NCBI RefSeq assembly: GCF_009727055.1
Contig: NC_052359.1
Location: forward strand, 21,659,952-21,723,951
Direction: 5' to 3'
Length of the DNA: 64,000 bases
Origin: Benincasa hispida
Lineage: Eukaryota; Streptophyta; Magnoliopsida; Cucurbitales; Cucurbitaceae
The stretch's first letter is position 1; each line of letters starts with the position of its first letter. The notes below the pieces were generated by a model, which made no database searches, was not told where the DNA came from, and was given only the letters and a program-made list of their open reading frames with translations. A program made the position numbers and the translations under genes. Shown here piece after piece: positions 6,831-18,278 of this stretch.

Positions 6831-8274
6831 CTAGTTTTAGAAACTTGTTTAGTGAAAAATGACGATACTGTCTGGATACTTGATTCAGGCGCCACTAACC
6901 ACGTTTGTTCATCATTATAGGAAACTAGTTCCTGGTAGTAGTTGGAGGCTGAAGACTTGACTCTACGGGTCGGGACAGGACAGGTCATCTTGACTGTTGT
7001 AGTAGAAAGCTAGAAGTTGTTTTTTAGTTCAAAACTTATATTGTTGGAAAATGTATATTTTGTTTTTCATTTTAAGAGGAATTTAGTTTCTTTATTTTCT
7101 TTATTGGAACATTCATATAATACATCTTTTGTTCGTGATAAAGCATTTATATTGAAAAATGGTATTGATATTTGTTCAGCAATAAACGAAAACAACTTAT
7201 ATGTGCTAAGACTGTTAGCATATAAAAGGATCCATAATGTTGAAATGTTCACTACTAAAACTACACAAAATAAACTACTAAAAGTTTCTCCAAAAGAAAA
7301 TGCTCATCTTTAGCATCTAAGACTGGGTCACATAAATCTCAATAGGATTGAGAGGTTGATTAAGAATAGACTTCTAAAGAAGTTAGAAGTAAATTTTTTA
7401 CTTATATGTAAATCTTGTCTAGAGGGAAAAAAGACAAAACGACCATTTACTGGAAAAAGTTATAGAGCCAAAGAACCCTTGGAACTTGTACATTCAGATC
7501 TTTGTGGTTCGATGAATGTTAAAGCAAAAAAAGAGTATGAATACTTCATCACTTTTATAGATGATTATTCTAGATATGGGTATGTTTACCTAATGCAACA
7601 TAAGTCTGATACACTTGAAAATTTCATGGAGTACAAGGCTGAAGTTGAGAATTTTTATTGGGTAAAAAGATAAAAACATTTCAATCAGATTGAGATGGAG
7701 AGTATATGAATATGGGATTCCAAAACTATTTAATAGAACATGGAATCATATCTCAACTCTCAACATCTAGTAAACCTCAACAAAATGGTGTATCAAAGAG
7801 GAGAATCAGAACCCTGTTAGACATGGTTCAGTCAATGATGAGTTATACTTTCTTTACCAAACTCGTTTCGGGGTTATGCAGTGCAGACTGTAGCTTTTGC
7901 ACTAAGTTCCATCAAAAAGTGTTTCTGAAACACCTTCTGAATTATGGAGAGGTCGAAAAATAGTTTACATAATTTCAGGATTTGGGGGTGTCTAACACTT
8001 GTGCTAGTGGCCAACCCAAAGAAATTGGAACCATGTTTGAAATCATGCCTCTTGTTAGGCTATTCTAAAGAAAGGAGAGGCGGTCTCTTATATGATCCGA
8101 AAGAGAATAAAGTATTTATGTCAACAACTGCAACTTTCTTGGAGGAAGACCAGATTAGAGAGCATAAACCAAGTAGTAAAATCGTATTAGATGAGCTTTC
8201 CAACAAAACTACTAAAATTTCAACAAGAATGTTGAATAAGAAATCACTTCATAAAGAGTTCTTGATGTTGCTTC
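6831..8274 (+). pseudogene. pol: Copia-1 pol (protease to post-integrase), broken and truncated
   Basis: Protease keeps its active-site motif WILDSGATNHVC near 6870-6912. The GAG-pre-integrase domain shows LRLGHINLNRIERLIKN (its first residues are behind a TAG at 7310). Integrase runs from the zinc-binding SCLEGKKTKRPF through ELVHSDLCG and TFIDDYSRYGYVYL; the next block has GNGVSKRRIRTLLDMVQSMM-like sequence with a frameshift near 7673. The segment FRIWGC to STTATFLEEDQIREHKP (7975-8165) is the linker before RT. Coding then stops at 8274, where a Copia LTR starts in the same orientation. RT and RNase H are absent. A nested insertion or a deletion would both fit. Confidence 0.85.
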
Positions 8275-8392
8275 TGTTGAGGTTGATGCCCTAAATCTCG
8301 TAGGGTTCTGTAGTTTGTAATTGTATTGTACAAATATTTTATTTATTTAATAAAATATGAGATGTTTTATTTTACATGTAGTAGCATTAAGC
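8275..8392 (+). repeat. Copia-2 LTR, 5' end
   Basis: It begins TGTTGAGGTTGATGCCC, the LTR start also seen at 56557 and (variant) 22264, and is cut after about 118 bp by the truncated Gypsy-T LTR. The same LTR's last 245 bp lie at 17117-17361. About 1.5 kb of expected LTR middle is missing, so a deletion accompanied or followed the Gypsy-T insertion. Confidence 0.7.
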
Positions 8393-8607
8393 CCACAGTT
8401 CCTTTGAGCCTTTTCCTCTGGCAGCCCTACTCTGAAAACTAGACTTCCAAAGCTTTCAGATGGCTTTGAAATCACTCCAAACGCATGAGTAGATTTGAAG
8501 ATCTCCTCGTCCAAAGTTGACACATTCCTCTGATCCCTCACTGCCCTCTACTTTCTCTACAAAATTTATGATTTTTATGTGATTTGAAAATGAAATCCCA
8601 ACTCCCT

Positions 8608-8616
8608 ATTTATAGG
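8608..8616 (-). promoter_or_regulatory. TATA box in Gypsy-T 3' LTR
   Basis: The minus strand reads CCTATAAATAGGGAG; the identical context is at 16131-16139 in the other LTR. Confidence 0.6.
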
Positions 8617-8984
8617 CATTTAAATTGCTCGTGGGATTGATAGCACCTACTTAGCTGCATGGCCAAATGTTTAATCCTCCCTTTATCAACGTAAGCTGAC
8701 TTCACCTTGGTTCAATGTATTCTTCCCAAATGCATCCAACACGATTTCTTACGGTTTAAGAATTTCTCTTAATCGGACACCTAAATTTTAATTGATGTTT
8801 GCCCTTACGTCTTCAAGCTTTGTTTGTATTCAAATTAGGGTTTTTAAATACATAATCCACCCGAACGCGTCCAAATACATCACCCATAAGCTTGCTCGGC
8901 CGTTCTATGCATAGGCGAGGCGTGGGTGTGATGTTCGAATGCAGCACCGGACAAGGCGTGGCTGACGCATGGGCTGCTCTCGCT

Positions 8985-9245
8985 CTCTCCCACTTTCTCA
9001 CTAGTCTTACTCTCTCCCACTTTCTCACTCAAAATCTCGCTCTCTCCAACTTTCTAGCTCAAAATCTCGCTCTCTCCCACTTTCTCGCTGGTCTTGCTCT
9101 CTCTAATCTCACTCTCTCCCATTTTATCTCCAACTTTCTCTCCAATCTCGTTCTCTTCCACTTTCTCGCTCTCTCCAGTCTCGCTTTCAATGATCTCGCT
9201 GGTCTCGGTCTCAATGATCTTGCTCTCAACGATCTTGCTCTTAGC
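8985..9245. repeat. TC-rich CTCGCTCTCTCC block in Gypsy-T LTR
   Basis: Irregular tandem copies of CTCGCTCTCTCC / CACTTTCTCGCT with TCTCAATGATCT units at the end. The matching block at 16495-16800 in the 5' LTR differs by unit gains and losses. Open frames here (rich in Leu, Ser, Phe) are by-products of the repeat and not genes. Confidence 0.85.
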
Positions 9246-9563
9246 TACTGCGAACATTGTTCATCTCCGTGCAATTTCTACACGATTGTGCCACTAGTCA
9301 CTTGCCTTCCAGTGCTTTGTGCACAACACGCATTTTACATAAATTTTCCATATTTAGCCAATTTTTCCCAAATTTCCCAAACTCAATGTCCATATTTTTC
9401 TTTTCAAATTCCCATTCCTTCTTCACCATTTCATACTAACTTTCTCATCAACCTACTCAACTTATTTATACAAATTTAAATAGGGACACATAATTAAGTG
9501 GAAAATTAAGACAATTAAATAAGAAAACACACTTAAGTGTAAAATTGGGATTCGGGGTTCACA

Positions 9564-9577
9564 TTTACCTCCTTTTT
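9564..9577 (-). other. Gypsy-T polypurine tract
   Basis: The minus strand reads AAAAAGGAGGTAAA, ending exactly where the 3' LTR starts at 9563. This is the plus-strand DNA primer of reverse transcription. Confidence 0.7.
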
Positions 9578-9614
9578 ATAAAAATTTCGTCCTCGAAATT
9601 TCGCCACAAGTCTG

Positions 9615-10034
9615 TCAGTTAAACAACTGCGGATACTTATTTCTGATTTGCTCCTCAGCTTCCTATGTTGCTTCTTCTATAGCATGATTTTGCCATAGCA
9701 CCTTTACTAATGGGATTGTCTTATTCCTCAAGACTTGTTCCTTTCTGTCAGGAATCTCCACTGGTTCCTCCTTATATGACAAATTCTCTTTCAACTGTAT
9801 CGGTTTCTCAGATAATATATGAGTAGGATCTGGCACATACTTTCTAAGCATTGCCACATGAAACACATCATGAACACGAGATAATTCCGGAGGTGAATCC
9901 AATCGATATGCCATTGGACCAATTCTTTCTATTATCTCATAGGGTCCAATATATCTCGGGCATAACTTCCCTTTTCTACCGAACCTGAGTATCCCTTTCC
10001 ACGGAGATAATTTTAGAAATACTTTATCACCCAT
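9615..10034 (-). pseudogene. pol: Gypsy-T pol C-terminus: SH3-like segment and chromodomain
   Basis: The frame opens with GDKVFLKLSPWKGILRFGR then LCPRYIGPYEIIERIG and DVFHVAMLRKYVPDP, the integrase C-terminal region of chromoviruses. The end, PLVKVLWQNHAIEEAT, is followed by a TAG at 9663-9665 that replaces the usual tryptophan; the frame continues EAEEQIRNKYPQLF to a TGA near 9615. This is the chromodomain that steers integration to marked chromatin (family knowledge). An in-frame TGA near 10107 separates it from the integrase core. Both stops are single transitions. Confidence 0.85.
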
Positions 10035-11174
10035 TTCAAACTCTAATTCTCTTCTCCACTTATCAGCATAACTTTTCTGCCTATCTCGAGCCGTCTTAAG
10101 ATTATCTCTTCAAATCTTAATGTTATCTGACATCTGTTGTATAAGTTCTGGACCTAGTAATTTCCTTTCACCAACTTCATTCCAGTATATTGAAGTCCTA
10201 CAAGGTCTTCCGTATAGGGCTTCATATGGTGTCATTCCGATACTCGAATGGTAGCTGTTGTTATATGCAAATTCAATTAACGACAGATGCATATCCCAAC
10301 TGCCTATGAATTGCAATACACATGTCCTCAGCATGTCTTCCAATGTCTGAATTGTCTTCTCAGACTGACCATCCGTCTGTGGATGAAAAGCGGTACTAAA
10401 ATATAACTTGGTCCCCATAACTTTATGCAAACTAGGCCAAAACTTTGATGTAAATCTGGAGTCTCGATCTGATACAATTGAAACTAAAGCTCCAAACTGA
10501 CTTACGACTCGATCAACATATAGCTTAGCGAGTTGGTCCAGGGTATAAGTGGCTTTAATAAGTAAAAACTTAGCTGTTTTTGTCAATCTATCCACAATTA
10601 CCCATATACCATCATAGCTTGCTGGTGTCTTAGGTAATCCATACAAGAAATCCATCTTAATATGTTCCCACTTCCATTCTGGTACTGGGAGTGGATTAAG
10701 TAAACCTGCTGGTTTCTGTCTCTCTGGTTTAACTTGTTGACATATTAGACACTTGTCAACATACTTCGCTATTTCTTTTTTTATACTCGGCCACCAGTAT
10801 GATTTCTTTAATGTTCTATACATCTTCATACTGCCTGGGTGCATAGCATATGCCGAACTATGTACTTCTTCTAGGATAGCTTGTCTAAGAGCTAAGTCCT
10901 TAGGTACGCAAATCCTACCCTCCTTTAGTAGCACTTTGTCTGTTCTTACTTGATAGTCCATCCTCAATTCTTTATCCACTTCTTCAGCTAACTTCTTCAG
11001 ATCAGAATCCTTTAATTGCTCACGTAGAATATTTTCTACAAGAGTAGGACGCACTTGAAATAAGGCTAGTAATCCTCCTTTTCGACCGATTGATAATGTT
11101 GCCCTAGCATTATACAACTCATAGATCAATCTACCCTTCACTAAATTAATACCAGCTCTAGCTGATCTAGTTTT
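10035..11174 (-). pseudogene. pol: Gypsy-T integrase
   Basis: The longest open stretch is 343 codons (11141 to 10110). Counted from its first Met, the HHCC zinc-binding set is H94, H101, C131, C134. The catalytic core has D164 (KMDFLYGLP), D225 (VSDRDSRF) and E261 (TDGQSEKT), exactly the DD35E spacing. GMTPYEALYGR near the end is the usual core C-terminus. A TGA near 11172 splits it from RNase H and another near 10107 from the chromodomain. Core residues are intact, so decay here is recent relative to the Copia copies. Confidence 0.9.
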
Positions 11175-11645
11175 TCAACTTAAGGCATCAGCTACCACAT
11201 TTGCTTTACCTGGGTGATAGTCAATTGTACAGTCATAATCTTTAATCAATTCAAGCCATCTTCTCTGTCTTAGGTTTAGTTCCTTTTGATCAAAGATATG
11301 CTTTAGACTCTTATGGTCTATAAATATATGACATCGCTCACTAAACAGGTAATGTTTCCACAATTTTAGAGCTAACACAACTGCTGCTAACTCTAAGTCG
11401 TGTGTAAGGTAATTACATTCATGCTTCTTTAACTGTCGCAAAGCATAGGCTACTACTTTTCCCTCCTGCATCAGCACACATCCTAATCCTTGTCGGGATG
11501 CATCACAATAAACTTCAAACCCCTTACCTGGTGTAGGTAGAGTTAATACCGGTGCTGATACTAATCTTTGTCTCAGCACTTGGAAACTATGCTCGCATTC
11601 TGGCGACCATTCAAACTTCGCATCTTTTCTGGTCAGGTTTGTCAA
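11175..11645 (-). pseudogene. pol: Gypsy-T RNase H domain
   Basis: 156 open codons. The frame begins [20 protein letters not shown], the thumb-to-RNase H connection, followed by [16 protein letters not shown] (first catalytic Asp), [14 protein letters not shown] (catalytic Glu) and FIDHKSL (second Asp). It ends in [14 protein letters not shown] (last Asp). All four acidic positions expected of Ty3 RNase H are visible. Upstream, a frameshift near 11650 separates it from RT. Confidence 0.9.
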
Positions 11646-12151
11646 TGGAAGGGCTATCTTAGAGAACCCTCCACGAATCTCCTATAATATCCTACTAAAC
11701 CCAGAAAACTGCGTACTTCGGTTACATTCAGGGGTCGTTCCCAATTAACTACTACTTCTATCTTTTAGGAATCAATACTAACTCCGTCAGGTGAAACTAT
11801 ATGCCCAAGAAATATGGCTTGATTTAACCAAAAATCACACTTACTAAATTTGGCATATAACTTCTTTTCTCTTAAAGTTTGTAATACCATCCTTAGATGT
11901 TCTTTATATTTTTCCGCACTACTGGAATACTCTAGTATGTCATCTATGAATATTATCACAAACTGATCCAGATAAGAATGGAATATCCTATTCATCAAGT
12001 CCATAAATACCGCAGGAGCATTTGTCAGTCCAAACGACATTACTAGGAACTCAAAATGTCCATATCTAGTTCTAAATGCAGTCTTTAGAACATCTGTGTC
12101 TTTCACCTTCAATTGGTGATAGCCTGACCTCAAATCTATCTTAGAGAACAT
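11646..12151 (-). pseudogene. pol: Gypsy-T reverse transcriptase core
   Basis: [36 protein letters not shown] and [12 protein letters not shown] are RT motifs. The catalytic box is [12 protein letters not shown], the F-x-DD form normal for Ty3 elements. [10 protein letters not shown] and FLGHIVS follow. The frame is open from 12151 to 11765; the rest ([22 protein letters not shown]) is present in an adjacent frame before the RNase H stretch. Confidence 0.9.
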
Positions 12152-13045
12152 CGTTGCTCCCTTTAACTAATCGAAGAAATCATCTATACGAGGCAATGGG
12201 TTATTCTTAATGGTCACCTTATTCAGCTATCTATAGTCTATGCATAATCTAAGAGTACCGTCTTTCTTCTTAACAAACAAGACTGGCGCTCCCCAAGGTG
12301 ATACACTGGGTCTAATGTACCCCTTATCTACAAGTTCCTGTAATTGAACTTTTAACTCTTTCAACTCCATTGGAGCCATCCTATATGGTGCTTGGGATAT
12401 AGGTGCAGTACCAGGAATTAACTCAATAGTAAATTCCACTTCCCTATCAGGCAGTAAGCATAGTAATTCTTCAGGGAACACATCTAAGAACTTTTGTACT
12501 ATAGGTACATCCTCAGGTTTTAGTTTCTTATCTTCGGAAACTACTACATAGGCTAAATAGGCTTCACATCCTTTACTTAACAACTTCCTAGCCTTCACTG
12601 CTGATATTAAACTTCCTGGAAGTATTCTTTTACTTCCCACCAGGGTTATTTCTTTTTCACCTGGTTTTCTAAACACTATTTCTCTCTTAAAACAATTCAT
12701 AGTGGCATAGTGTTTACTTAGGAAATTCATACCTAAGATAACATCAAACTCTAGTAATTCTAATGGAATCAAGTCGACCCAAAAACTTTGGTCTCCAAGA
12801 ATTACTTCACAATTCCTATAATACTCATGTACCACTAGAGTATCTCCTACAGGCGTAGAGATAAATAATTCCTCATCCATACGTTCAGGTATTTTATCTA
12901 TATGTAATGCACATATACTAGATATGAATGAGTGTGTAGCACTAGAATCAAATAATGCATAAGCGGATTGATTACATAAAGTTATCGTACCAGTTATGAC
13001 ATCTGGAGCTTCTTCTGCTTCCTGGTGTGTCATAGCGTACATTCT
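12152..13045 (-). pseudogene. pol: Gypsy-T aspartic protease and RT N-terminus
   Basis: 271 open codons. The protease motif is [13 protein letters not shown]; the family consensus has Gly in place of the second Ser, so the catalytic D-S/T-G triplet is altered by a single change and may be inactive. [10 protein letters not shown] follows. From about codon 175 the RT N-terminus appears: [45 protein letters not shown] and RLCIDYR, then a TAG. It adjoins gag upstream through a Gln-rich PQQQQGR linker. Confidence 0.88.
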
Positions 13046-14293
13046 ACCCTGCTGCTGCTGCGGTTACTGTTAGGGTCATCCAGCTACCCCTTTCTACTTA
13101 GCCACACCGGATCCTTCTCCCCTAGTCCCGGTCGTTCTAGGTTGGTCCCCGTCTGTGTTACTTGGCTTTGTTCATTTTGTGGTTCCACGAACTTAGTTGA
13201 GGAACAAATTCTCTTTCTATAAAATACCCAGCTTTGTCCTGCACTGGAAACACAACATTCCCTATTACATAACATAACTCCTATATGAGCGCTTCTACCA
13301 CAGTTACACAAAAGTGGTTTCCTCCCCGTACTAGCCACCGACTCACTAGCACGACCTGATACTGATCTACCACTTTGTTTAGCTACAGGTCTGGACTTCT
13401 TTCGACCCAAACTGTGTTGGCTCATGCCCCCAAAACTCCTTATCCCCAACTGTTCAAAGAACGAGGATCTAAATTTTTTACTTTTTGTTTCTCCAGGCAC
13501 TCTAAACTGTCCTTCTCTTGATTGAAGTTCATCCTCCTTCGCTACACTCCGCTCTACTTGGATAGCGGTCTCAGCTAGCTGAGTGAAATTCACCCAATTA
13601 GACGTAGAGGTAACAGGTGTACGTATTTTTCTTCTTAAGCCACTCTCAAATTTCCTACACCTCTCCTTCTCTTCTGCGATGATCGAAAGGGCATACTGAG
13701 ATAACTTAGTAAATTTTTTCTCATACTCAACAACCGTCATCACTCTCTGAGTTAGCCTAAGGAATTCTTCCCTCTTCGCATCTCTAAAAGAACTAGGGTA
13801 GTATTTAGCCTCAAATTTCTGAACTACTCCTTCTAGCCTCTATCACTTTCCACCATTTCTCAGCCCCTTTTTGCAGCAAGAATGTCGCTAACTCGACCTT
13901 ACGATTCTCAGGGCATCTCATAACTTTAAAACACTTCTCAATCAAATCCAACCAGATTTCAGCATCTAATGGATCTGTGGTTTCATCGAACGTCGTGTCT
14001 CCTAAAGCTTTCAGCCTCTCAACGTCGAACTTCTTTTCTGGATCATTTTGAATCGATCCTACACTCGCCGCTAATCTTTGAGTGATTCTATCGAATACTC
14101 GATCCTCTATCTGGGGTTCTACATCTACTTTTGGTGTACTAGACTCGTTTTCAAAAGTTGCCTCCTGTTCTACTGAGTCTCTAACTCTTTTCCCCTTCGG
14201 ATCTAGGTCTGACGAGACCTAAGGACCCCCACTGGTAAGGTCAATATTCCTCTTCTCAGTCTGCTTGCTTGGTCTGCCTCTTTTCCTCAGCAT
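13046..14293 (-). pseudogene. gag: Gypsy-T gag, broken
   Basis: The start is the minus-strand ATG at 14293 (MLRKRGRPSKQTEKRN), about 190 bases after the primer site. A TAG near 14220 interrupts early. Recognisable Gag pieces are DAEIWLDLIEKCFKVM, LATFLLQKGAEKWW and KFEAKYYPSSFRDAKREEFL, then a 219-codon open stretch from 13743 with SGLRRKIRTPV and a basic, Ser-rich tail. The zinc knuckle is degraded to LCNCGRSAHIG with a disturbed second half. Particle assembly and RNA packaging would be its role; it cannot be made as one protein. Confidence 0.8.
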
Positions 14294-14485
14294 CTTTGCC
14301 TAATTATTAGGTACACATGTTAGGGACTTATCTATGGGACTTTAATCTAATGCTTGAACTCTCTCTTTCACCCAAAGTCTTATGTTTTAGTACTAAGCTA
14401 GCTTAAATCTTTCCCAAACTTACGTATAACCCATCCTTTAATACCAAGTACGTATCAACTAATTCCCAATTGTCCAAAAATATTA

Positions 14486-14498
14486 TGCTCTGATACCA
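14486..14498 (-). other. Gypsy-T primer-binding site (tRNA-Met type)
   Basis: The minus strand reads TGGTATCAGAGCA, complementary to the 3' end of plant initiator tRNA-Met. It lies three bases inside the LTR end, TGTGATA. Confidence 0.85.
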
Positions 14499-14873
14499 AA
14501 CTATCACACCCCGCCCCAGATCACCCTCTAAGCCTAGAGAAGGGTGTGACTGCAGCAGTTATCAACCCTTAGGCTAACACTTACTGCCTAAAAACTCTTG
14601 CGGAATAACTCTGATACCAAATACAAATTATATGCAACAGGACCCGGCTTGTAGGCCCACAATTTATTAACTTAGAAACTTAATATGTTTAGAGTATTTA
14701 CAACATTAGATTTACAAGTCCCAAAACCCACAAACCCTAGTCCCTATATGAACAATAGTAACATGTGTACAATATTAACAGTAACCACCTAGCAAACAGT
14801 TACAAGTCTTTTCGTCCTTTAGTGGCAAAGCAGATACTGAGCTGTCTTGAGAGGATTTGACCGCTTACCTGTT

Positions 14874-14888
14874 GGGGGGGGGGGGGGG
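14874..14888. repeat. Homopolymer of 15 G
   Basis: A plus-strand run of 15 G flanked by GTT and AAC, inside the Gypsy-T LTR. Its length may be unreliable in any assembly. Confidence 0.9.
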
Positions 14889-15124
14889 AACAAAAACATT
14901 TGAAAACGGGGTGAGCTTACGCCCAGTGAGTGACCAAGAAAACATAGTAAATTCTCATGCATAATTTCAGAGGATAGTTTTATCTGAAATATAATTCAAT
15001 GCAGCATAAACAATTTCCAAGCGTAATGTATATAAAACTGTTTTAAACATAAAACAGTAAAATCATTTCTCAAATCAGAGTACTGTATAACTAGTAAAAT
15101 AATCCCAACACCAACTACTAGTCT

Positions 15125-15361
15125 AGAGAGAACCCTTTTGCTCAATCTCTGACTTTATTCACCTGTGGCCACATTACGTACTACTGCTCAGATACCTTCT
15201 CCTTGTACTTCAGTATCGAGCTAATAGGATACCTTCTCCAACGTACTTCAATATCCTGTTGGCTTGGTACCTTCTCAAACGTACTTCAGTACCAATAGAT
15301 ACCTTCTTCTTATACTTCAGTATCTAGTTGGGTGGATGCCTTCTCCTTGTACTTCGGCATC
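15125..15361. repeat. Tandem stem-loop array with compensatory stems
   Basis: Five units of about 30-40 bp share a loop close to CTTCTCCTTGTACTTCA but have different, internally complementary stems. These are GATAC/GTATC (15191-15217, extended by GCTC/GAGC), AGGATA/TATCCT (15226-15257), TTGGTAC/GTACCAA (15264-15295), TAGATAC/GTATCTA (15296-15326) and GATGCC/GGCATC (15335-15361). A related unit with loop AACCCTTTTGCTCA and stem AGAGA/TCTCT is at 15125-15150. The array lies between the TATA box and the primer site, so it should be transcribed. Confidence 0.8.
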
Positions 15362-16130
15362 GCATTTTACCAAAATTATTTATAAACAACTTTTCTCTTT
15401 AAAACATGTACAGTATAACACATATACAACATGGCTTTAAAGATGGTAACGCATGCTGGATAAAATCAACATATGTAAATAGTTTTTCAAAATTAGGCAT
15501 GCGTTCACAACACAATTCAAATCTTTCTTGGAAACCACTTTATAAAACTAGTAGGCATGAGAATTATTTTCGCAAACATGCTTTTTGTAAAATGTTTGTA
15601 ATCAAACCAGTTTAAAAACATTTTAGTTCAAAAAAAATTTTAGCCACTCACCTGGAATTCTTAGGAACTTTTCACTCTAGTAGCTCCTCGGGTCCCTTTT
15701 TCACCCCTAGAATCCAGATTCAACTTACAACTTAGATTACTTATAGTTCCGAATCTTATTTGGAAATACTTCCTTCTATAAAATTATTCTAAAATGGAAT
15801 CTTACCATAAACTTTCGGCTTAGAATTCCTCGTGGTTTGGTCGGAATCTCAAAATCTTCAAGACTGCCCCAGACTGATCCGACAGTCTGACCCTTCTGCC
15901 TTCTTCTCAACCTCCAGCCCAGTCCCTTTGAGCCTTTTCCTCCGGCAGAAATACTCTGAAAACTAGACTTTCAGAGCTTTCAGATGGCTTTGAAATCACT
16001 CCAAACGCATAAGTAGATTTGAAGATCTCCTCGTCCAAAATTGACACATTCCTCTGAACCCTCACTGCCCTCTACTTTCTCTACGAAATTTATGATTTTT
16101 ATGTGATTTGAAAATGAAATCCCAACTCCC

Positions 16131-16139
16131 TATTTATAG
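16131..16139 (-). promoter_or_regulatory. TATA box in Gypsy-T 5' LTR
   Basis: The minus strand reads CCTATAAATAGGGAG, identical to the left LTR copy. It is about 360 bp downstream of the TC-rich block. Confidence 0.65.
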
Positions 16140-16494
16140 GCATTCAAATTGCTCGTGGGATTGACAGCACCTACTTGGCTGCATGGCCAAATATTTAATC
16201 CTCCCTTTATCAATGTAAGCTGACTTCACATTGGTTCAATGTGTTCTTCCCAAACGTATGCAACACAATTTCTTAGGTTTAAGAATCTCTCTTAATCGGA
16301 CACCTAAATATTAATTGATGTTTGCCCTTACATCTTCAAGCTTTGTTTGATTCAAATTAGGGCTTTTAAATGCATAATCCACCCCAACGCGTCCAAATAC
16401 ATCACCTATAAGCTTACTCGGCCATTCAATGCATAGGCGAGGCGTGGGCTTGACGTTCGAATGCAGCACCGGACAATGCGTGGCTGATGCACGG

Positions 16495-16800
16495 GCTGCT
16501 CTCGCTCTCTCCACTCTCACTCTCTCCGACTTTCTCGCTCAACATCTCGCTCTCTCCACTCTTGCTCTCTCCAACTTTCTAGCTCAAAATCTTGCTCTTT
16601 CTGCTCTCGCTCTCTCTCACTTTCTCGCTGGTCTTGCTCTCTCCAATCTCGCTCTCTGCCATTTTCTCTCCCATTTTCTCTCCAACTTTCTCTCCAATCT
16701 CGTTCTTTTCCACTTTCTCGCTCTCTCCAATCTCGCTTTCAATGATCTCGCTGGTCTCGGTCTCAATGATCTTGCTCTCAATGATCTCGCTCTTAGCTAC
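16495..16800. repeat. TC-rich CTCGCTCTCTCC block, second copy
   Basis: Counterpart of 8985-9245, with extra units such as CCACTCTTGCTCTC. It lies upstream of the TATA box on the minus strand, a purine-rich GAGA-type tract in the coding sense. Confidence 0.85.
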
Positions 16801-17116
16801 TGCGAACATTGTTCGTCTCTGTGCAATTTCTACACGATTGTGCCACTAGTCACTTGCCTTCCAGTGTTTTTTGCACAACATGCATTTCACATAAATTTTC
16901 TATACTTAGCCAATTTTTCCTAAATTTCCCAAACTCAATGTCCATATTTTTCTTTTCAAATCCTCATTCCTTCTTCACCATTTCACACTAACTTTCTCAT
17001 CAACCTACTCAACTTATTTATACAAATTTAAATAGGGACACACAATTAAGTGGAAAATTAAGACAATTTAAATAAGAAAACACACTTAAGTGTAAAATTG
17101 GGATTCGGGGTTCTCA

Positions 17117-17361
17117 TTTTAGAGGAATCCTTCGTGGTAGTGGCCATTATGATTTCAAGTATGTTATTGTTTGTGATCGACTCCAAAAAAGAGAAAATAT
17201 GTGAAGATTGAATCTTCAAGGGTGAGTATTTTCCATCTTCTTTACTCTTATTTAGCATGTTTTAATTTAAATTAAATGCATAATATATCTATTCATTTCT
17301 GTAAAATTGGGATTTGGGATCAATCCTCATTTTCGCTCTGAACCTTCATCGATTCTTTCAA
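17117..17361 (+). repeat. Copia-2 LTR, 3' end (U5) with splice-donor-like site
   Basis: It ends TTCTTTCA directly before the primer site. It contains CAAGG|GTGAGTATT at 17218-17230, placed like the donor sites in the U5 of Copia-3, -5 and -6. The other part of this LTR is at 8275-8392. Confidence 0.7.
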
Positions 17362-17374
17362 TTGGTATCAGAGT
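17362..17374 (+). other. Copia-2 primer-binding site
   Basis: TTGGTATCAGAGT, one mismatch from the tRNA-Met site; one base from the LTR end. Confidence 0.85.
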
Positions 17375-18278
17375 GAGGTTTTGGCCCAAACTTTTCCAAA
17401 TTTTTAGTATTAGTTTTACAGTTTCATGGTGGGATTTTAGCATTATGTATATTAGTGAATGTATGGAATAATTGTTTACAATTATGGATTTTTTTCAGAA
17501 TTGGATCTAGTCTTTACAGCCTTTACTTTTACAAATTTGATTAGTAAGGGCCCGTATTTTCAGCATAATTTTCATTATAGAGTCTGTTTTTTATGTTTAT
17601 TGAGTCGTTCGTGGCAATTTTGGCCGAGTTCTGAAGAAGACGAGGCAAAAAGCGGAGGAGAATCGAAGAAAATCGCAACTGTACAGGGGCTTCTATACAG
17701 TAGCGTTACAACATTATGCTTTACCGTTGCAACGATGCGAACGGAGCGTTCTATCCATAGCGTTGCAATGCTAGGTCACAACATTGAAACGTTGCGAAAC
17801 AAAAAAAAATAAACCGGTTCGTGAGTGGTCTGGTTCGTGTCTGGTTCAATTGGTTCGAGCAATTCTTGGTCGATTCGGGTGCTGGGCAGTCCGGTTCGTG
17901 CAGTTCAAGACCCGATTCTCTTGCTTTGAATCGATAGACCATGAATTTTGTAATAGATAGTTTTTTTATTAATTAAATTAATATAATCGTTATATTAATT
18001 TAATTAATAGTTTAGGAGTTCAATCCTAGTCAAATAATTATTTTTTGAATGATGCATTTGATGTATGATTTATTTTTTATATTATATATGCCATAATGTA
18101 TGTAACATAGTGAAAATCCCACCATAGGTTATGCATAATTCATGCATCATTTATATTATAAATATTATAATATACAGTTGCATGATTTAATTTTATAGGA
18201 ATCTCATGCATCATATATTATAAGTGTTATAATATATGTTTGCATGCATTAATAACATAGTCATGCATGATTTATATA
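17375..18278 (+). other. Copia-2 leader, truncated
   Basis: Leader blocks in order: GTAAGGGCCCGTATTTTCAG (17546), TTGAGTCGTTCGTGG (17598), a GCGTTGCAATGC-type motif block (17700-17800), GGTTCGTGCAGTTCAAGACCC, then the AT-rich hairpin module at 18141-18238. No gag follows: near 18279 the sequence becomes LTR, so the element was cut and joined to Copia-3. Confidence 0.7.
18152..18238 (+). repeat. Two perfect hairpins in the Copia-2 leader
   Basis: 18152-18174 is TATATTATAA-ATA-TTATAATATA (10 bp stem). 18212-18238 is CATATATTATAA-GTG-TTATAATATATG (12 bp stem, three-base loop). The first is preceded by CATGCATCAT and the second overlaps ATGCATCATA. Confidence 0.85.

Follow-up and report, generated by a model that had tools for sequence, protein, structure and literature searches.

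A tandem hairpin array with a near-constant loop and variable, paired stems in Ty3/gypsy LTRs of Benincasa hispida

The loop-constant, stem-variable hairpin array in the Benincasa hispida genome is real. Five tandem hairpins lie on the minus strand at positions 15186-15361 of the window (the whole 64,000-nucleotide stretch of DNA analysed here), and they share the near-constant loop GAAGUA...AGAAGG, with stems that differ between units yet pair. The repetition of the unit, the conservation of its loop between families, the retained pairing, the preference for the sense strand, the single orientation and the genome-wide abundance are all observed, and the hairpins are very probably genuine RNA structures under selection. 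The RNA structure is well supported; its function is something that we infer. We tentatively favour a multi-site protein-binding signal in the sense RNA, most likely for Gag recognition and packaging, in the LTRs of plant Ty3/gypsy elements.

The array belongs to a degenerate element on the minus strand, a Ty3/gypsy LTR retrotransposon that carries an integrase and an SH3 domain of the Tf2-1 type. Its 2.6-kb 5' LTR (about 14502-17116, from a BLAST search of the window against itself and a reading of the boundaries) and the remnant of its 3' LTR (8396-9566, from the same search), cut off before the array position, enclose separate coding remnants at 9663-14218, in which Pfam recognises gag, protease, RT, RNase H, an integrase zinc domain and SH3_Tf2-1. 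Pfam domains occur in six of seven minus-strand pieces, in the order gag, protease, RT, RNase H and integrase, with the frames broken apart. Positions 8396-9566 pair with 15920-17119 at 91% raw identity in the window self-BLAST, a shared part of 1.2 kb, and the LTR pair is 94.4% identical over 1155 aligned positions (K2P 0.059). The 5' LTR starts at about 17116 with TGAGAACCCC and the other LTR with TGTGAACCCC, just after a purine tract; two LTRs, a primer binding site (PBS) by the 5' LTR and a purine tract (PPT) by the 3' LTR are all present. The PBS, TGGTATCAGAGC (14487-14498, minus strand), adjoins the end of the 5' LTR and is presumably of the tRNA-iMet type. Domain order, the LTR pair and the PBS bear out the Ty3/gypsy half of the initial annotation's "chromovirus LTR", whereas Pfam finds no chromodomain at the integrase C-terminus of this element; we take the integrase tail to resemble Tekay chromodomains and the element to be Tekay-like. 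The window holds a single copy of the array because the left LTR copy stops at 8396, short of the array's place. Both LTRs also carry a long imperfect TCTCGCTCTCTCC-type repeat in their presumed U3 part (8978-9241 and 16499-16793). Elsewhere in the window, within 22264-58008, diverged repeats in both direct and inverted orientation are numerous; they reach 2.6 kb, share about 70-92% identity and resemble a duplicated-gene cluster or nested elements.

As first described, the array (15186-15361) lies between a TATA box, TATAAAT in the GCCTATAAATAGG context at 16132-16138 on the minus strand, and the PBS at 14487-14498; it should therefore be part of the element's RNA. Transcription would start from this presumed promoter and place the array in the leader of the genomic RNA. 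All five stems originally named are present. Hairpin 5, the first in the RNA (15335-15361), has the stem GATGCC/GGCATC; hairpin 4 (15296-15326) has TAGATAC/GTATCTA, lengthened by CCAA/TTGG beyond a bulge; hairpin 3 (15264-15295) has TTGGTAC/GTACCAA; hairpin 2 (15226-15257) has AGGATA/TATCCT; and hairpin 1 (15186-15221) has GATAC/GTATC within GCTC-GATAC/GTATC-(T)-GAGC, where a single nucleotide bulges out of the 3' arm. In hairpin 2 there is a U.G pair where most of the family copies read have C-G. The loops measure 15-20 nt, and the constancy claimed for them applies to their two sides: 5' GAAGTA and 3' AGAAGG are invariant, whereas the middle varies. A further TATAAAT occurs at 15378-15384, just upstream of the first hairpin; this alternative promoter, if used, would place the RNA start inside that hairpin.

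Within the window, the shared loop and the register of the stems set the array apart; the density of hairpins alone is not unusual there, and the array is not listed by TRF. In the five-unit alignment, the proposed register gives 92.5% standard pairs over 8 stem positions, against 32.5-47.5% when it is slid by 1-3 columns, and four of the eight stem pairs change on both sides, which none of 500 shuffles reaches. Over seven positions, 30 of 35 cells are Watson-Crick, a value matched by two of 120 arm permutations, one of them the true arrangement, and reached by a neutral point-mutation simulation in 190 of 200,000 runs. The inner five positions alone make a weak case (24 of 25 paired, matched by 6 of 120 permutations and 5,488 of 200,000 simulation runs), and the window units continue to pair well when their arms are exchanged. 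A primer-like reading of the stems, based on AGGTATCTGAGC (15186-15197), which shares 10 of 12 positions with the PBS, was rejected; the GGTACC and GATGCC stems of other units lose this match, and thus it is pairing, not tRNA-like letters, that is kept.

The hairpin loop recurs thousands of times in the host genome (912,946,352 bases searched). Exact loops number 7,548 in all (control 5), with 1,684 exact matches to CTGAAGTAC-N2-6-GAGAAGG (reversed control 3) and 5,864 to CYGAAGGAC-N2-6-GAGAAGG (control 2); a rarer loop variant gives 101 matches against 10 in the control. With the array as a query, and the best 40 of 1,826 candidates scored, 41 matches were listed, one being the window copy, 39 sharing 96-97% and one sharing 90% identity. 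These counts show abundance and not independent origins, the copies having spread through transposition. Across the 104 loci read, arrays hold 1-10 units, most commonly spaced by 38, 56, 37, 55 or 65 nt, and just two loci have units on both strands. The units run head-to-tail with a near-constant period, as in a short tandem DNA repeat (minisatellite).

The arrays fall into families with different numbers of units: five in family A (that of the window), three in B, two in C, five in D, which is related to B, one in E and three in F, and a further group has long arrays with GAAGGAC loops. Unit number changes, since one A-family copy (L176, C2:39760990) has six units, with one unit and its spacer apparently duplicated. 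In a blastn comparison of one copy per family, A-B and B-C align at the units only; A-C share, besides the units, one 120-nt stretch at 73%, A-D one 28-nt match and C-D three stretches of 75-119 nt; B and D are close relatives (82-86% over 300-400 nt). The LTR-end motif GTGTGACA follows about 700-930 nt downstream of the array in 9 of the 17 loci checked (families A, C, D and E), and family A copies stop aligning at it; families B and F and the long arrays are likely LTRs as well. Copia-type domains in L191, a flank piece next to one B copy, were set aside; they lie outside the aligned B repeat, which ends before that piece. All four B copies checked have TATAAATA just upstream of the first unit. 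A second PBS-like site, TGGTATCAGAGT, is found inside the window LTR at 14608-14619, about 110 nt ahead of the LTR end; copy L121 of family A also has a PBS-like match ahead of the LTR end, and related TTAATATCAGAGT matches occur in the B copies L133 and L139.

Outside the host genome, which was the sole plant collection covered, the searches took in Rfam and viral, phage, plasmid, bacterial and archaeal sequences. Rfam gave no matches in 7000-18000, and two hits from a further Rfam search (E 0.9 and 0.98) are far below gathering scores and lie beside the hairpins. Motif and protein-piece scans of viral contigs and BLAST against phage and plasmid DNA found no relative, and at least 119 matches of a 17-mer in bacterial and archaeal genomes were taken as chance. 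Neither a description of such an array nor any of six sequence fragments searched as text was found in the partial literature library that was searched.

Pairing of the upper stem is retained across copies well above what the phylogeny of the units predicts. We analysed 283 distinct units from 103 of the 104 loci, keeping the longest unit chain per locus and leaving out L130 (same place as L131), L177 (overlapping L176), the flank pieces L191 and L192, and units with N or with more loop mismatches than allowed. The same four pieces were excluded from the per-pair test, the arm-swap comparison of 174 units and the strand comparison below, and the per-pair test and the strand comparison likewise used the longest chain at each locus. 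Pair 1 is biased in the loci found by pattern, where the anchor unit is required to have C and G at that pair, and some loci of one contig (C1) were chosen by eye for loop variety from lists limited to 100 places. In the null, each substitution was moved to a branch with a clade of equal size, on one tree from all columns and one without the stem columns. The five positions of the upper stem are 0.898 Watson-Crick, compared to null means of 0.707 (all-column tree) and 0.751 (stem-free tree), and none of 400 simulations on either tree reached the observed value. For the lower stem, a register that allows a 1-nt 3' bulge gives 0.527, a value reached by 1 and 5 of 400 simulations, and the unbulged register does not exceed the null (113 and 57 of 400). 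In an earlier analysis of 180 distinct units, 0 of 500 simulations on either tree reached the observed Watson-Crick pairing of the upper stem, 5 and 9 of 500 did so with G-U counted as paired, and 75 and 28 of 500 did so for unbulged pairs 6-7 alone, which are not clearly above the null. A first null with random branch placement was dropped for putting too many changes on deep branches; pairs 1-5 and 1-7 gave 0 of 400 there too.

Several paired forms of the upper stem coexist. Fully paired stems among the 283 units include GATAC/GTATC (100), AGTAC/GTACT (37) and GGTAC/GTACC (17), and more rarely GATGC/GCATC (5), AATAC/GTATT (5) and TGTAC/GTACA (1); AATAC/GTATC (20) is among the common unpaired forms. 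Pair 6 shows AT, TA, GC and CG in different unit classes. Upper stems with at least five pairs made up 79% of 174 distinct units with their own arms, 44% with right arms swapped and 0.5% when shuffled. Samples of 15 units with one copy per family, drawn from 9 A, 19 of 30 B, 13 C and 1 D copies, gave 0.81 Watson-Crick over seven positions (0.76-0.84), against 0.64 (highest 0.78) with right arms swapped.

The covariation that the initial annotation expected holds for the stem as a whole, which exceeds the null on both trees, and not for any single pair. A per-pair, tree-aware G test in the manner of R-scape, with simulated nulls, found no significant pair; pair 4, the best within the stem, has E = 2.3, and the highest score overall (E = 0.58) falls on a pair outside the stem. 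Double transversions at pair 5 had no matches in exact short GAAGTAC loops. Among units with long loops, three have a change in both outer letters (control 1), and all three are complementary; two of them are double transitions, which are complementary automatically. Pairing is thus held as a whole, and the independent changes are too few for per-pair proof.

The strand data favour, on balance, the element's own RNA. In a random 120 units, the mean MFE per unit was -8.3 kcal/mol for the sense strand versus -6.2 kcal/mol for the antisense, the sense folding better in 102 of the 120, and swapping the right arm costs about 2.3 kcal/mol. Broken pairs at positions 2-4 are more often G-U in the sense RNA (23) than A-C (10), and the reverse holds at pair 5 (A-C 29, G-U 18). 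For the window fold, the z-score is -2.15 in sense and -2.93 in antisense. The minus-strand folding predicted at the outset is borne out in part: in a 251-nt sense RNA of the window, units 1, 4 and 5 form with a pair probability above 0.9, whereas units 2 (about 0.05) and 3 (about 0.18) are not predicted to form in this copy. In the 1,602 nt of the presumed leader, unit 1 falls to about 0.55 and unit 3 to 0.09. The recurrence of the loop across LTR-like families, the whole-stem pairing above the tree nulls and the better folding of the sense strand together support the original proposal of selection on folding.

A second hairpin class often accompanies the array. This hairpin, AGTC-AGAGA/TCTCT-(A)-GACT with the loop UUGAGCAAAAGGGUUC (15120-15154, minus strand), had been taken for a sixth related unit; the stem AGAGA/TCTCT is indeed present, but it represents a separate class met in other families, and the covariance model of the five window units does not find it. 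With a relaxed motif, it follows the array in six of seven checked loci (families A-D) and in part of the further loci, and its exact pattern has 1,556 matches in the host genome (reversed control 0). Its arms differ between families, and a TC repeat leaves the register ambiguous. Between the array and this hairpin lies a perfect 10-nt palindrome, TGTGGCCACA (15164-15173).

The array is best read as a structured cis-acting RNA signal of a retroelement in an unusual multi-copy form that is not in Rfam. In each unit, a purine-rich loop of about 16-20 nt, UGAAG(U/G)AC-N2-6-GAGAAG, tops an upper stem of about 5-7 bp; beneath it comes a lower stem, often set off by a 1-nt bulge in the 3' arm. The UUGAGCAAAAGGGUUC-loop hairpin often follows. 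The array sits upstream of the primer site, in a stretch of the LTR that is presumably transcribed. A protein may read the loop, which the paired stem would hold open; the reader may be the element's own Gag/NC, and the array would then work as a multi-copy packaging, possibly dimer-nucleating, signal. Conservation of the loop, combined with a stem whose main requirement is to pair, is the mark of a loop-reading protein, and the place of the array between the TATA box and the primer site, where retroelement packaging and dimer signals sit, favours recognition by Gag/NC. We infer protein binding, Gag as the reader and packaging from these features, and if the hairpins are real, selected structures, a packaging role has a little less than an even chance.

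Known packaging signals offer partial parallels. MLV SL-C/SL-D and HIV-1 SL3 are retroviral packaging hairpins with exposed purine loops, and alphaviruses have multi-stem-loop packaging signals. The hairpins described here resemble them in being short elements of genomic RNA, in several copies, with fixed loop letters and freer stems, and differ in lying in plant LTRs, in having up to 10 tandem units and a loop of 16-20 nt, and in being known from sequence alone. Tandem repeats in plant LTR and 3' UTR regions seed satellites; these too are tandem units of changing number in LTR elements, and we know of no loop-constant, stem-paired units among them. In yeast Ty3, dimerisation, packaging and primer-annealing sequences are located at the structured 5' end of the RNA, and the packaging sequences are not precisely defined, according to the available part of one account (PMC11381356). 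As a member of the chromovirus-clade Metaviridae with cis signals in a structured 5' end of its gRNA, Ty3 is comparable, whereas the available parts of the reports on it mention no tandem conserved-loop array (PMC11381356, PMC4974528). An HMM survey of LTRs likewise describes, in the part available, TATA, AATAAA, a GT-rich stretch and terminal inverted repeats; that part does not model plant Metaviridae and describes no hairpin array (PMC3601003).

A role in 3'-end formation or strand transfer is unlikely, although it is the strongest of the alternatives. Here R would end just past the array, and hairpins at both RNA ends would govern poly(A) site choice or the first strand transfer. A possible poly(A) signal, AATAAA in the sense strand (15154-15159, minus strand), lies about 25 nt past the window array and is followed by a G/U-rich stretch at 15097-15120, an arrangement in line with the AATAAA and GT-rich stretch that modelled Metaviridae LTRs carry in the available part of the survey (PMC3601003). 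In the B copies L139 and L147, an AATAAA occurs about 110 nt past the array. The signal is not found in every copy checked: within family A, L121 has it at the window's place and L122 lacks it, and it is absent near the array in the B copies L132 and L133. This inconsistency is why a poly(A) role is not the leading view.

A mutational origin with no RNA function is somewhat less probable again. A tandem repeat of about 38 nt with a palindromic edge would expand in the LTR, and template switching, during replication or reverse transcription, would rewrite one arm from the other. The spacers between neighbouring window units seem alternately inverted (S12 matches inverted S23 at 15 of 19 positions), as arm-to-arm copying would make them, so that adjacent units can also form longer, competing pairings, chiefly in the antisense strand. 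Simple two-unit (dimer) duplication was rejected as the source of these spacers, the loop similarity being without the two-unit period expected from it. Template switching is described as creating and maintaining hairpin stems (PMC8794818) and as turning quasi-palindromes perfect (PMC3820800), as far as the available parts of these sources go. The initial annotation had judged such stems hard to get by drift, which was too strong, given that template switching writes paired stems (PMC8794818, available part) and that independent stem changes are few. Nonetheless, template switching leaves unexplained both the sense preference and the persistence of the loop across families with flanks that have ceased to align. 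It may instead supply the stem changes and inverted spacers, with selection then keeping the stem changes.

Control of translation through the leader is improbable. The array does lie in the presumed leader upstream of gag, where hairpins could shape a long 5' leader through shunting, initiation or ribosome blocking, but a simple roadblock needs no fixed purine-rich loop. A role at the DNA level, as binding sites for host factors or as cruciforms, is very improbable: the units are tandem and fixed in orientation, as promoter repeats can be, and TATAAAT(A) closely precedes the first unit in the window, in L122 (not L121) and in all four B copies checked, yet a duplex-binding factor would fix the sequence of the arms and not their pairing, and the antisense folds worse than the sense even though the DNA is identical.

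Recognition by Gag thus remains our preferred reading. Ty3/gypsy elements fill much of many plant genomes, and to our knowledge their packaging and dimerisation signals in plants are undefined. A loop-fixed hairpin present in thousands of copies is a concrete, short target for binding and probing, and it could serve to detect such LTRs independently of protein homology. In a more elaborate form that we regard as doubtful, the packaging signal would be a two-part code of 1-10 GAAG(U/G)AC hairpins plus the UUGAGCAAAAGG hairpin, in which Gag holds the loop and template switching rewrites the stems. If this is true, hairpin number would vary by family, and the repeat would be a record of a packaging arms race within one genome.
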